Origin: Kaistia adipata DSM 17808
Lineage (GTDB): Bacteria; Pseudomonadota; Alphaproteobacteria; Rhizobiales; Kaistiaceae
Direction of reading: 5' to 3'
DNA length: 64,000 nt
Assembly: GCF_000423225.1 (NCBI RefSeq)
Contig: NZ_KE383992.1
Span: 250,971-314,970 of the forward strand
Part shown: positions 18,873 through 22,848 of the stretch, one piece after another
How positions within the stretch are numbered: position 1 is the first letter of the stretch
Layout of the letters: each line of letters starts with the position of its first letter
Translations under genes and position numbers: made by a program
Notes under the pieces: model-generated
What the model was told of the DNA's origin: nothing
What the model saw: only the letters and a program-made list of their open reading frames with translations
Databases searched by the model: none

Positions 18873-18927
18873 TAGAGCCACCGAAATCTTCGCGTGGCAC
18901 AGCGCGATCACGATGATCGTCGTCGCG

Positions 18928-18956
18928 TATATGCGGACTCATCGTTAAAAAAGCAA
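18928..18956 (-). promoter_or_regulatory. promoter of rhlE-cspA-infA
   Basis: On the minus strand TTGCTT (18951-18956) and CATATA (18928-18933) are separated by exactly 17 bases. The transcript would start near 18920 and carry a leader of about 155 bases before the rhlE TTG. A long leader fits a cold-shock gene. Confidence 0.55.
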
Positions 18957-19073
18957 ACGAAAAGTCGCATGCCCGTGCGTCGAGGCGCCGAAAACGGCGT
19001 TTTTCTGCCGCGCAGCTTGTCTCTGCCGCACAACTGTGCAGAGTGCCAGTTCCGACATCCCGCATGTGATCCC

Positions 19074-20018
19074 ATGTCCGCATCCAGCCCTACCGTCCCC
19101 GCCCGCCAGCTCTCCAGCTCGGTGCTGGGTATCCTGCTCATGATCCTGGGCATCTTCCTCTACTCCGCCAATGACACGCTCGGGAAATGGCTGACGGCCA
19201 CCTATTCCGTCGGCATGATCATGCTGCTGCGATCGATCGCGGCGATGGTGGTTCTGGGACCGTTCATTCACAAGCATGGCGGCATCGCGACGCTCAAGAA
19301 GGCGCCCCGCCCCGGCCTGCAGCTTCTGCGCGTCGCCGTCACCGTCGGCGAGATCGGCTTCTTCTACTGGTCGGTGTCGCTGCTGCCGCTCGCCGACGTC
19401 ATGACCTACTATCTCGCCGGCCCGATCTACGTGGTGGCGCTCTCGGCGCTGCTGCTGAAGGAAAAGGTCGACGGGCCGCGCTGGGCGGCGGTGATCGCCG
19501 GCTTCATCGGCGTGGTCATCGTGCTGCAGCCCTCCTCCGAGAGCCTCAGCTGGGGCGCGCTGATCGCGATCGGCGGCAGCCTGTTCTTCGCGGCGCTGAT
19601 GATCGTCACCCGCCAGCTGCGCGGCACGCCGGACTCGACCCTCCTCACCTTCTCGACGATGGCGACGCTCGCCGTCGGGGCCGTGCTGGCGCCCTTCACC
19701 TGGACCACGCCGACGCCGCTCGGCCTCGCCGGGCTGGCGCTGATCGGCGTCGTCGCGCTGGTGGCGCAGCTCTGCGTCACCCGTTCGCTGCGGCTGGCGC
19801 CCGCCTCCGTCGTCGTGCCCTACCAGTACACCATGCTGATCTGGGCCGTCGTGTTCGGCTATTTCATCTTCGGCGACACGCCGCGCATCTCGATGCTGAT
19901 CGGCGCCGTCATCATCATCGCCGCCGGCTTCTACATCTTCCTGCGCGAGCAGCGCACGGGATCGCCCAAGCCGGGCGACACCGTCATCGAGGAAGTCGGC
20001 GACAACGTTCCCGGCTAG
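19074..20018 (+). CDS. EamA/DMT family transporter
   Basis: Ten-helix inner-membrane transporter of 314 residues with two EamA repeats. The first begins SSVLGILLMILGIFLYSAND and carries LLPLADVMTYYLAGPIYVV, a typical end of repeat one. Substrate is unknown. I chose ATG 19074 (MSASSPTV); the frame is open back to 18894, but that part overlaps the rhlE promoter and is not family-like. It is divergent from the rhlE unit. The C-terminal tail is charged and cytosolic. Confidence 0.88.
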   Translation: MSASSPTVPARQLSSSVLGILLMILGIFLYSANDTLGKWLTATYSVGMIMLLRSIAAMVVLGPFIHKHGGIATLKKAPRPGLQLLRVAVTVGEIGFFYWSVSLLPLADVMTYYLAGPIYVVALSALLLKEKVDGPRWAAVIAGFIGVVIVLQPSSESLSWGALIAIGGSLFFAALMIVTRQLRGTPDSTLLTFSTMATLAVGAVLAPFTWTTPTPLGLAGLALIGVVALVAQLCVTRSLRLAPASVVVPYQYTMLIWAVVFGYFIFGDTPRISMLIGAVIIIAAGFYIFLREQRTGSPKPGDTVIEEVGDNVPG

Positions 20019-20238
20019 CCCCGCCGCATCGTCGCCCGGCCACGGCGGGCCGGCCTAACACATTGTCCGGTCGCGCTTTCCCGGCGCGCCGGCGCCTCGG
20101 CGGCGCGCATCGCCAGACCGCCCCGATCACGGCTTCGCGAGCGGCCGGCGACGCCACGGCGCCGCCGCAATTTGCGCCGACACAACTTCGGTGGAACGCG
20201 CGTCAGCCCGACGCGCCCGCGACTGCGGATCGGCCGAA

Positions 20239-21384
20239 ATGGGCGTTGCATCGCGCCTCGAAAGTGCTGTCGACGCCCCTTCGCCGCCCCCCTTCGTCGT
20301 GCGCCCCGCCGGGGTCGCCGACCTCGACGGGCTGGTGGCGATCGAGGCGCTCTGCTTCGACACCGACCGCATCGCCCGGCGCAGCTTCCGCAAGCTGGTC
20401 GAGGCGCCGACGGCGGAGATCACCGTCGCGAGCCTGCCGGACGGCGGTATCGTCGGCTACGCGCTGCTGCTGTTCCGGGCCGGCACCGGCATGGCGCGGC
20501 TCTATTCCATCGCCGTCCACCCGGACCTGCGCGGCAGCGGCATCGGCGCCGCGCTGATCGCGGAGGCCGAGGCGGTCGCCTACGCGCGCGACCGCTTCCT
20601 GCTCCGCCTCGAGGTGCGGGAGGACAATGCCGGCGGCATCCGCCTCTACGAGCGGCTCGGCTATCGCCGCATCGGGCGCTATCTCGACTATTACGAGGAC
20701 CACACCGACGCGCTGCGCTTCGAGAAGCGGCTGCGCGGTCCCGCGCAATCGACCGCGGTGCGCTACTACGAGCAGACCACGGATTTCACCTGCGGCCCCT
20801 GCTGCGTGATGATGGCGCTTGGCCATTTCCGACCCGATTACGCGATGGGGCCGGTCGAGGAGATCAAACTCTGGCGCCAGGCGACGACGGTGTTCATGAT
20901 GGCTGGGCTCGGCGGCTGCGACCCGCATGGCCTCGCCGTCTCGGCCGCCCGCAACGGGCTTTCGGCCAGCATCCATGTCAGCCATGAGGGCTCGCTATTC
21001 CTCGAATCCGTGCGCGATCCGGAGAAGCGGCGCGTCATGGCGCTGGCGCAGGAGGATTTCCGCCGCCAGACCGTCGCCTTCGGCATCCCGATCCACCACC
21101 GGCCGATCGCGGTCGCCGAAATCCGCGCCGCCCTCGCCGAGGGCGCGCTCGTCATCGTGCTGATCTCCGCCTACCGGATGTTCGGCAAGAAGGTGCCGCA
21201 CTGGGTTCTTGTCGTCGGCGACGACGGCCGCCACCTGTTCATCCATGACCCCTGGGTCGAGGACCGCAGCCGCGAGACCCACAGCGATGCCGCCAATTTG
21301 CCCATTCCCTATGCCGATTTCGAGCATATGGCGCGCTGGGGCCGCGAGGGCCTGCGCGCCGCCGTCGTGCTCAGACCGAGGTGA
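20239..21384 (+). CDS. GNAT acetyltransferase fused to a C39-like cysteine peptidase
   Basis: A 381-residue two-domain protein. Residues 18-165 form a GNAT domain with the acetyl-CoA motif RGSGIG (98-103) and END-like ending EDNAGGIRLYERLGY. Residues 170-381 form a papain-like peptidase_C39-like domain; the likely triad is visible as Cys185 in DFTCGPCC, His321 in VPHWVLVV, and Asp337 in IHDPW, so it is probably active. Known family: this fusion is found beside RimK-type ligases, and the RimK gene here starts three bases later. Predicted role: making or trimming a modified peptide; unproven. ATG 20239 is chosen; GTG 20191 would add 16 residues. Confidence 0.88.
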   Translation: MGVASRLESAVDAPSPPPFVVRPAGVADLDGLVAIEALCFDTDRIARRSFRKLVEAPTAEITVASLPDGGIVGYALLLFRAGTGMARLYSIAVHPDLRGSGIGAALIAEAEAVAYARDRFLLRLEVREDNAGGIRLYERLGYRRIGRYLDYYEDHTDALRFEKRLRGPAQSTAVRYYEQTTDFTCGPCCVMMALGHFRPDYAMGPVEEIKLWRQATTVFMMAGLGGCDPHGLAVSAARNGLSASIHVSHEGSLFLESVRDPEKRRVMALAQEDFRRQTVAFGIPIHHRPIAVAEIRAALAEGALVIVLISAYRMFGKKVPHWVLVVGDDGRHLFIHDPWVEDRSRETHSDAANLPIPYADFEHMARWGREGLRAAVVLRPR

Positions 21385-21387
21385 AAC

Positions 21388-22848
21388 ATGGCTGACTGGG
21401 TGATCCTGGTCGATAGCGCCCGGGACTTTCCGAACGAAGACACCCCGCACAAGGTCATCACAACCAAGGATTATCTCGCCCGCGCCAGCCTGTTTCGCGG
21501 CTCGCGGCCGAAGATCATCAACCTGTCGCGCTCCTTCGCCTATCAGAGCCGCGGCTACTACGCCTCGCTGCTCGCCGGCGCGCGCGGCCATCGCGTCATC
21601 CCGAGCGTCGAGACGATGATCGACCTCGGCAGCAAGGCGCTCTACGCGCAGGCGCTGCCCGAGCTCGAGGACCAGCTCGCCAAGGTCGGCGCCGCCGGCG
21701 GGAACGGCGCGCTGCCGCCGCGCCTGCTGGTGATGTTCGGCATCGCCGAGGACCACCGCTTCGACCGTTTCGGCCGGCTGCTGTTCGACTGGTTCCGCTG
21801 CCCGGTCCTGGAGGTGACGATCGACAGCGGCACCAGGGCCGAGATCCGCAAGCTCGCGGCCGTGCCGATCCACAAGCTCTCGCCCGACGAGCTCGCCTTC
21901 TTCCACGATGCGCTACATGACCATACGCGGCGCGAATGGCGGTCGAAGAAGGCGACCCGGCCGACGCCGCGCTATTCGCTCGCCGTGCTGCACGACCCGC
22001 AGGAAGCGATGCCGCCCTCCAACCTCGCCTCGTTGCGGTACTGCGCGCGGATCGCCGAGAAGCTCGGCGTCGAGGTCGAGCCGATCACCCGCAAGGACCT
22101 GGCGCGGCTCGCCGAATTCGACGCGCTGTTCATCCGCGAGACGACATCGATCGGCAACCACACATACCGCTTCGCCCGCCGCGCCGTGCAGGAGGGCATG
22201 CCGGTGATCGACGATCCGGTGTCGATGATCCGCTGCACCAACAAGGTCTATCTGCAGGAGCTGATGACCGGGAACGGCATCGCCGTGCCGCCGACCATCA
22301 TCGTCGCCGGCAACCGCGACCTCGAGCGCGCCGCCGACCAGCTCGGCTTTCCGCTCGTGCTGAAGATCCCGGATTCCTCCTTCTCGCGCGGCGTCAAGAA
22401 GGTCGACAACCATCGCGCCCTGAACGAGCTGGCGCATGCCTGGTTCAAGGATACCGATCTGCTGCTGGCGCAGAAATTCATGCCGACCGCGTTCGACTGG
22501 CGCGTCGGCGTGCTCGGCGGCAAGCCGCTCTTCGTCTGCCAGTACACCATGGCGAAGAAGCACTGGCAGATCGTCAAGCACCGCGAGAACGGCAAGGCGC
22601 TCGAAGGCGGACTGCGCTCGATGACCATCGGCCAGGCGCCGCCGGAAGTGATCGACATCGGCCTGCGCGCGGCGCAACTGATCGGCAACGGCCTCTATGG
22701 CGTCGACATCAAGGAGACGGAGGACGGCTTCTTCGTCATCGAGGTCAACGACAACCCCAACATCGAGCACGGCATCGAGGACGCGGCCGAGAAGGACCAG
22801 GTGTGGATCGAGCTGACCCGCTGGTTCGTCAATCGGCTGGAGAGGTAG
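21388..22848 (+). CDS. RimK-type ATP-grasp ligase with RimK-like N-terminal domain
   Basis: A 486-residue protein. The N-terminal half (about 1-190) resembles the RimK-like ATP-grasp N-terminal (RLAN) domain, and residues 200-486 are an ATP-grasp fold of the RimK type. ATP-binding segments visible are FPLVLKIPDSSFSRGVKKV and the metal-binding VIEVNDNPNIEHGIED. RimK relatives join glutamate or other amino acids to a carboxylate of a peptide or protein; the substrate here is unknown. ATG 21388 follows the stop of the GNAT-C39 gene by three bases, so the two are an operon. It is not the ribosomal S6 modifier, which lacks this N-terminal domain. Confidence 0.88.
   Translation: MADWVILVDSARDFPNEDTPHKVITTKDYLARASLFRGSRPKIINLSRSFAYQSRGYYASLLAGARGHRVIPSVETMIDLGSKALYAQALPELEDQLAKVGAAGGNGALPPRLLVMFGIAEDHRFDRFGRLLFDWFRCPVLEVTIDSGTRAEIRKLAAVPIHKLSPDELAFFHDALHDHTRREWRSKKATRPTPRYSLAVLHDPQEAMPPSNLASLRYCARIAEKLGVEVEPITRKDLARLAEFDALFIRETTSIGNHTYRFARRAVQEGMPVIDDPVSMIRCTNKVYLQELMTGNGIAVPPTIIVAGNRDLERAADQLGFPLVLKIPDSSFSRGVKKVDNHRALNELAHAWFKDTDLLLAQKFMPTAFDWRVGVLGGKPLFVCQYTMAKKHWQIVKHRENGKALEGGLRSMTIGQAPPEVIDIGLRAAQLIGNGLYGVDIKETEDGFFVIEVNDNPNIEHGIEDAAEKDQVWIELTRWFVNRLER

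Follow-up and report, generated by a model that had tools for sequence, protein, structure and literature searches.

Two adjacent genes of Kaistia adipata DSM 17808 were analysed in a window of 64,000 nucleotides, by which we mean the whole stretch of DNA under study. The first (20239..21384, + strand) is a GNAT-C39 fusion gene that encodes 381 aa from its ATG and matches PF00583/PF13508 and PF11814. The second (21388..22848, + strand) encodes a 486-aa RLAN-RimK-type ATP-grasp ligase that matches PF14401 and PF08443. The stop codon of the first gene and the start codon of the second are 3 bases apart (TGA AAC ATG). The initial annotation had described a GNAT and a papain-like domain in one protein, followed three bases on by a RimK-type ligase with an extra N-terminal domain. 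Both PF00583 and PF11814 match the first protein, in agreement with this description, and the extra domain of the ligase is RLAN (PF14401).

The longest open frame of the GNAT-C39 gene spans 20191-21384, begins with GTG and encodes 397 aa. Residues from the ATG at 20239 align well with Kaistia defluvii (L098), and those just upstream align partly. This alignment fits a start at ATG 20239 or further upstream. K. defluvii is the nearest named relative among the matches listed. The ligases of the two species are 88% identical and differ by 125 synonymous versus 56 amino-acid-changing codons; the GNAT-C39 genes differ by 83 versus 56. Profile searches of the whole K. adipata genome gave a single match to PF11814 and a single match to PF14401. 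A second gene with a RimK domain is found elsewhere in the genome. An EamA-type transporter gene (18894-20018) lies on the same strand about 220 bp upstream of the pair.

Domains and predicted active sites

The GNAT domain is Ard1/RimI-like, has approximate limits of 20290..20715 (+ strand) and contains E125, Y137 and a Y151-Y152-x-D154 motif. It matches PF00583 with an E-value of 7.6e-15. The NCBIfam RimI model (TIGR01575) covers residues 44-175 of the 397-aa frame at about 71.2-74.0 bits, which is below its cut-off of 86.4. Other GNATs in the genome also match this model, and one of them scores 76.4, slightly above the window GNAT and also below the cut-off. When the predicted structure of the whole GNAT-C39 protein (AlphaFold pLDDT 91.8, pTM 0.87) was searched with Foldseek, the best GNAT matches were Ard1 (E 2.9e-12) and RimI. 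In HMMER alignments, the LEVR and YY-x-D motifs were common to the window GNAT and Ard1 structures. The top matches of a GNAT profile search were named N-terminal or N-alpha-acetyltransferases, with small-molecule acetyltransferases listed too, and the best PDB match to the window sequence alone was phosphinothricin acetyltransferase (E 3.7e-8). Among C39-fused and plain GNATs of the module, E125 is conserved in 165/166, Y137 in 162/166, Y152 in 166/166 and D154 in 163/166. We take E125 and Y137 to be the counterparts of the Glu and Tyr that RimI uses in catalysis. By fold and motifs the domain looks like an N-alpha-type GNAT (Ard1/RimI), which is a resemblance and not an exclusive assignment.

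The DUF3335/C39-like papain domain (20761..21372, + strand) matches PF11814 with an E-value of 1.5e-79 and 266.8 bits (threshold 25) over residues 191-394 of the 397-aa frame. A papain-like site consists of Gln, Cys, His and Asp/Glu. Here, these residues are Q179, C185, H321 and D337, and all four are invariant in an alignment of 46 fusion sequences (A2). Every one of 112 GNAT-fused C39 domains has Q179, C185 and H321 (112/112), with D at position 337 in 102 of them and E in 10. The Cys185-His321-Asp337 triad proposed from the sequence alone is thus correctly placed in the alignment, and misalignment, which had been named as grounds for rejecting it, was not found. As judged from these residues, the active site of the papain-like domain is complete in the K. 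adipata protein, a predicted peptidase. The C39 part was absent from the 50 structural matches listed with the whole fusion protein as the query.

DUF3335 domains were also seen in other settings. One locus (L094:6728-8725) encodes a 665-aa protein with two such domains, and in the second one Gln, Cys and His are replaced by A, S and Y, so it looks inactive by sequence. In six loci (L091-L093 and L095-L097), DUF3335 occurs without a GNAT or RLAN nearby. Within one genus (g41), such a GNAT-less gene adjoins what is presumably a gene for a 2-oxoglutarate dehydrogenase E2-like protein in L096 and L097 and a presumed dihydrolipoamide dehydrogenase-like gene in L091.

The RLAN domain at the N-terminus of the ligase (21466..21909, + strand) aligns to positions 2-149 of the PF14401 profile over residues 27-174 (E 2.1e-39, 135 bits, threshold 25). 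The RimK ATP-grasp domain (22240..22770, + strand) matches PF08443 over residues 285-461 (E 7.3e-10, 39.2 bits, threshold 21). It contains D440, E452 and N454, which are kept in 53/53 ligase sequences (alignment A3) and which we take, by comparison with RimK, to be metal-binding positions. The AlphaFold model of the ligase has a pLDDT of 90.5 and a pTM of 0.60, and its domain arrangement is less sure at this pTM. In Foldseek, the folds closest to that of the ligase were Ddl, LysX, ArgX and RimK. The best-scoring NCBIfam model was LysX (TIGR02144) with 85.4 bits, compared to a cut-off of 275.6, and the RimK family alpha-L-glutamate ligase model (TIGR00768) gave 80.2 bits, compared to 143.4.

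Linkage of the GNAT and the ligase across Pseudomonadota

To follow the pair in other genomes, 173 RLAN loci were read: 33 from a class survey (the window included), 80 named loci and 60 from a phylum survey. The surveys were evenly drawn samples of the class (289 genomes) and the phylum (398 genomes), all within Pseudomonadota. The class survey gave 34 RLAN matches, and 33 of them were read; the one left out was a second, partial match of G205. The phylum survey gave 75 RLAN matches, of which 60 regions were read, 5 were already in the set and 10 were left out; coordinates place DUF3335 beside RLAN in 9 of those 10, and G487 has none. The named loci are the best 80 of at least 583 relatives, lean to close kin and may overlap with surveyed genomes; L141 and L077, for example, lie on contigs of equal length. 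The 173 loci are not mutually independent.

RLAN and DUF3335 occur together far more often than expected. In the class sample, RLAN was found in 33/289 genomes, DUF3335 in 26/289 and both in 21, where chance would give 3.0 (Fisher p 4e-19). The corresponding numbers for the phylum sample were 72/398, 58/398 and 57, compared to 10.5 expected (p 1e-53), and both p-values overstate independence since the genomes are related. DUF3335 without RLAN was seen in 5 of the 26 class genomes and 1 of the 58 phylum genomes.

The GNAT is linked to the ligase even more closely than DUF3335. A GNAT of the module type lies in the same locus as RLAN in 170/173 loci, including 33/33 of the class survey. Two of the three exceptions lie at contig ends, and the third comes from a genome with the GNAT-C39 gene on another contig: in L171 the RLAN match begins at the contig end, L267 has a C39 fragment alone at the contig start, and the genome of L211 (G461) carries the GNAT-C39 gene elsewhere. 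Unlinked genes in other genomes had been named as a reason to abandon the module, and this is not the case. The GNAT is upstream on the same strand in 130 loci (84 with C39), divergent in 31 (20 with C39), downstream on the same strand in 6 (4 with C39) and fused to the ligase in 3; the rest are the C39 fragment (1) and no GNAT (2). In one divergent locus (L239) the GNAT is 1.4 kb from the ligase with another ORF between them.

Some loci are more complex. GNAT-RLAN-RimK single-protein fusions were found in three loci of one genus (L075, L251 and L252), each of which also has a distinct GNAT-C39 gene in convergent orientation at a distance of 41-48 bp. L245 has the ligase, a GNAT and then a GNAT-C39 gene about 1.5 kb on. 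Both GNAT types are therefore present in four loci, and these are not explained by a simple pathway with one GNAT. Three genomes that share a genus (G337, G341 and G416) have two RLAN ligases each, one by a GNAT-C39 and one by a plain GNAT (L215/L217, L210/L216 and L214/L264, respectively). Two loci whose records bear the names of Acidobacteria or Sulfopaludibacter MAGs (L154 and L170) have GNAT-only modules with a ligase 52% identical to that of the window; they resemble Hyphomonadaceae loci and are possibly mis-binned contigs.

No further gene shares this linkage. Among ORFs of at least 60 aa within 5 kb (less at contig ends) in 106 dereplicated loci, no conserved third gene was found, and the commonest other neighbour family occurred in 14/106. 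The EamA transporter was rejected as a conserved partner because its family is near 4/106 loci. Short ORFs of 20-75 aa lying within 1.2 kb were compared for 171 loci; no family of them spans the loci, and the clusters obtained were mostly from Mesorhizobium-type loci. The widest cluster (20/171 loci) was discarded as a chain of low-complexity Ser/Pro/Ala-rich frames in unrelated places and strands. A RimB-like retropepsin was also rejected as a partner: the K. adipata genome has 0 matches to PF05618, and none was seen by eye among the genes near five loci, of which four are gammaproteobacterial. The search across genomes for neighbours and small ORFs proposed in the initial annotation thus gave no widely conserved gene or small-ORF family, and its remark that no carrier peptide gene stands beside the pair holds as far as tested, that is, for small ORFs at 171 loci.

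Presence of the C39 domain and apparent change of GNAT partner

The C39 domain is absent beside the ligase in 59/173 loci. A plain GNAT takes its place by the ligase in 13/33 class, 29/80 named and 17/60 phylum loci, and this plain GNAT usually belongs to the module's own GNAT family. In the class survey, 12/33 RLAN genomes have no DUF3335 match at all. In one genome with a plain GNAT beside the ligase (G293, L241), a DUF3335 gene with a 402-aa frame lies about 2.1 Mb off on the same contig. Because a GNAT is beside the ligase in 170/173 loci and C39 is missing in 59/173, the conserved unit is "GNAT plus ligase", not "GNAT-C39 plus ligase". The module of GNAT-C39 and ligase first proposed for this locus is right in its linkage and wrong in counting C39 as a constant part.

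C39 presence was mapped on a ligase tree of 133 dereplicated rows from the 173 loci and on a GNAT tree of 136 rows and 144 columns, which has weak support and includes the second GNATs of L075, L245, L251 and L252. There were 23 changes on the ligase tree, at least 17 of them forced by well-supported branches, compared to 4 changes on the GNAT tree. Constraining all C39 GNATs to one clade was not rejected (p-AU 0.655, with a likelihood 19 units higher). Since the GNAT tree needs 4 changes and one C39 clade is not rejected, the GNAT-C39 fusion probably arose once. The difference between the two trees suggests that ligases have switched repeatedly between two GNAT lineages, plain and C39-fused, or so it seems from these counts.

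In two pairs of loci, the flanks and ligases match and the GNAT seems to have been replaced. In L134 versus L124, the flanks are mostly 70-85% identical and the ligase start is 84-94% identical, while the GNAT part falls to 62-71%; overall identity is 94% for the ligases and 58% for the GNATs. The GNAT of L134 clusters with two plain GNATs, those of L079 and L086 (support 95). The drop below the flanks and ligase and this grouping point to replacement of the GNAT rather than to a deletion of C39 in L134. In L105 versus L129, flanks and ligase match and the GNATs have no match at the DNA level. True loss of the C39 domain is likely in L250, the sole C39-less GNAT inside the large GNAT-C39 clade (branch support 89). 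At ligase identities of 0.80-0.95, GNAT identity is 0.74 for C39/C39, 0.64 for plain/plain and 0.55 for C39/plain pairs, so faster divergence of plain GNATs may account for part of the replacement signal. Another possible explanation is an ancestor with both GNATs followed by differential loss.

A proposed acetyl-peptide pathway and its alternatives

By curated cut-offs, the pair is outside the NAGGN synthetase, RimK, LysX and RimI families. In NAGGN synthesis, a GNAT and peptide-bond formation cooperate, and an aminopeptidase gene can accompany them, according to a section of PMC8070244. The window pair resembles the NAGGN synthetase Ngg (TIGR03103; operon with AsnO and a glutamyl aminopeptidase) in having a GNAT and amino-acid ligation together, and the GNAT part precedes the ATP-grasp part in the Ngg model as in the window. 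Against TIGR03103 the window GNAT scored 28.6 bits, over the GNAT part only, compared to a cut-off of 569, and the ligase gave no match at E up to 0.001. To our knowledge, Ngg has no RLAN domain, and no AsnO is known at the window pair. In 142 class genomes, TIGR03103 had any match in 111 and a match over the cut-off in 9, and it was not used for co-occurrence.

As stated in part of PMC3872778, the ATP-grasp enzymes RIMKLA/B attach glutamate to acceptors, among them N-acetylaspartate. The likeness of the mammalian NAA/NAAG system to the window pair is that a RimK-type enzyme (RIMKLA/RIMKLB) joins glutamate to an N-acetyl amino acid there. NAT8L also belongs to that pathway, and its genes are separate and unlinked in animals. 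We know of no RLAN domain in the mammalian NAAG pathway. RimK/RimB, as outlined in a portion of PMC12239564, combines a RimK-type ligase with a counteracting protease, whereas the window protease is papain-like, carried on the GNAT and optional. LysX and ArgX, which act with the carrier LysW, are close to the ligase in fold, and LysX gave its top NCBIfam score, but no carrier-like small-ORF family stands beside window-type pairs at the 171 loci. GNAT capping of an ATP-grasp product has been proposed for R2K families (PMC4431377, in part). With NAGGN and NAAG synthesis and R2K capping as chemical precedents, we infer amide formation followed by acetyl capping.

We tentatively propose, at a little under an even chance, that the GNAT and ligase form a complete pathway by themselves, with an N-acetyl-capped amide of amino acids as its product. 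This proposal rests on the near inseparability of GNAT and ligase, the survival of their linkage through rearrangement and the lack of any other conserved neighbour. The RLAN-RimK ligase would use ATP to activate a carboxylate, which would then be joined to an amino acid. The GNAT would place its acetyl group on an alpha-amino group, either that of the finished peptide or that of its first residue. The C39 domain, where carried, could hydrolyse or transfer the amide, recycling or maturing the product as an optional step. The nearness of the GNAT to Ard1/RimI and of the ligase to Ddl, LysX, ArgX and RimK counts for such a pathway; the NAGGN model score and the resemblance of the GNAT to small-molecule acetyltransferases count against it. 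A pathway that builds, acetylates and trims had been suggested from the sequence alone; building and acetylating remain plausible, and trimming is dropped as a constant step and would be optional at most.

The strongest rival to a small-peptide pathway is a protein target, which fits nearly as well because RimK and many Ard1/RimI-type GNATs act on proteins. The ligase would extend a cellular protein by at least one residue, at its C-terminus or on a side chain; the GNAT would cap an alpha-amino group, and C39 would be an optional eraser. Three of the nearest structural relatives of the ligase (RimK, LysX and ArgX) have a protein or carrier protein as their substrate, and Ard1/RimI-type GNATs act on protein N-termini. 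RimB of Pseudomonas can also remove RimK-added glutamates in vitro (PMC12239564, in part). No widely conserved target or carrier gene is found beside the pair, though a target need not adjoin it; the K. adipata genome lacks the retropepsin eraser, and the supposed C39 eraser is missing in 59/173 loci. We regard a protein target as possible but doubtful. We think that a small cytoplasmic acetyl-peptide, similar to NAGGN or NAAG, would be more likely than a modified protein.

The GNAT could also act first by acetylating a free amino acid, and the ligase would then extend the N-acetyl amino acid. NAAG synthesis has this order (PMC3872778, in part), and the GNAT leads in the GNAT-RLAN-RimK fusions. 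However, domain order says nothing about reaction order, and the YY-x-D motif, common to Ard1-type N-terminal acetyltransferases, suits a peptide substrate better, so this order is improbable. Some RiPP sets pair an ATP-grasp ligase with a papain-like peptidase, a combination that the window recalls. A pathway of the RiPP or graspetide kind, whose precursor peptide would have escaped notice, is nevertheless very unlikely, as no small-ORF family spans the 171 loci, though a distant precursor would be possible. The already weakened idea that C39 is the main function, as a peptidase or transpeptidase served by the GNAT and ligase, fits the full conservation of its catalytic residues in GNAT-fused domains and its occurrence without GNAT or RLAN, but is hardly credible when GNAT and ligase persist without it in 59/173 loci and 12/33 class-survey RLAN genomes have no DUF3335 match.

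A literature search of titles and abstract openings gave no experimental work on the pair and no function for the RLAN ligase. DUF3335 proteins are often fused to GNATs (PMC10318531, citing Iyer et al. 2009). These fusions belong to the same protein family as the window protein, and the part of PMC10318531 covered makes no mention of RLAN, an optional C39 or partner change. The DUF3335-GNAT fusion is already on record; possibly new are the definition of the unit, the optional nature of C39 and the exchange of partners. Iyer et al. (2009) may already cover one or more of these three points.

Returning to the acetyl-peptide pathway, a broader reading is that it is undescribed and widespread in Pseudomonadota, and that its RLAN ligase repeatedly swaps a GNAT for a GNAT-protease or the reverse, switching product forms or lifetimes with no other gene. 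This reading is, on balance, unlikely. The RLAN ligase is present in 33/289 class and 72/398 phylum genomes, and in the loci read it nearly always has a GNAT beside it. With GNAT and ligase as the working unit, the biochemical question involves just two enzymes together with acetyl-CoA, ATP and amino acids. The natural pairs with and without C39 offer a way into the role of the protease domain.
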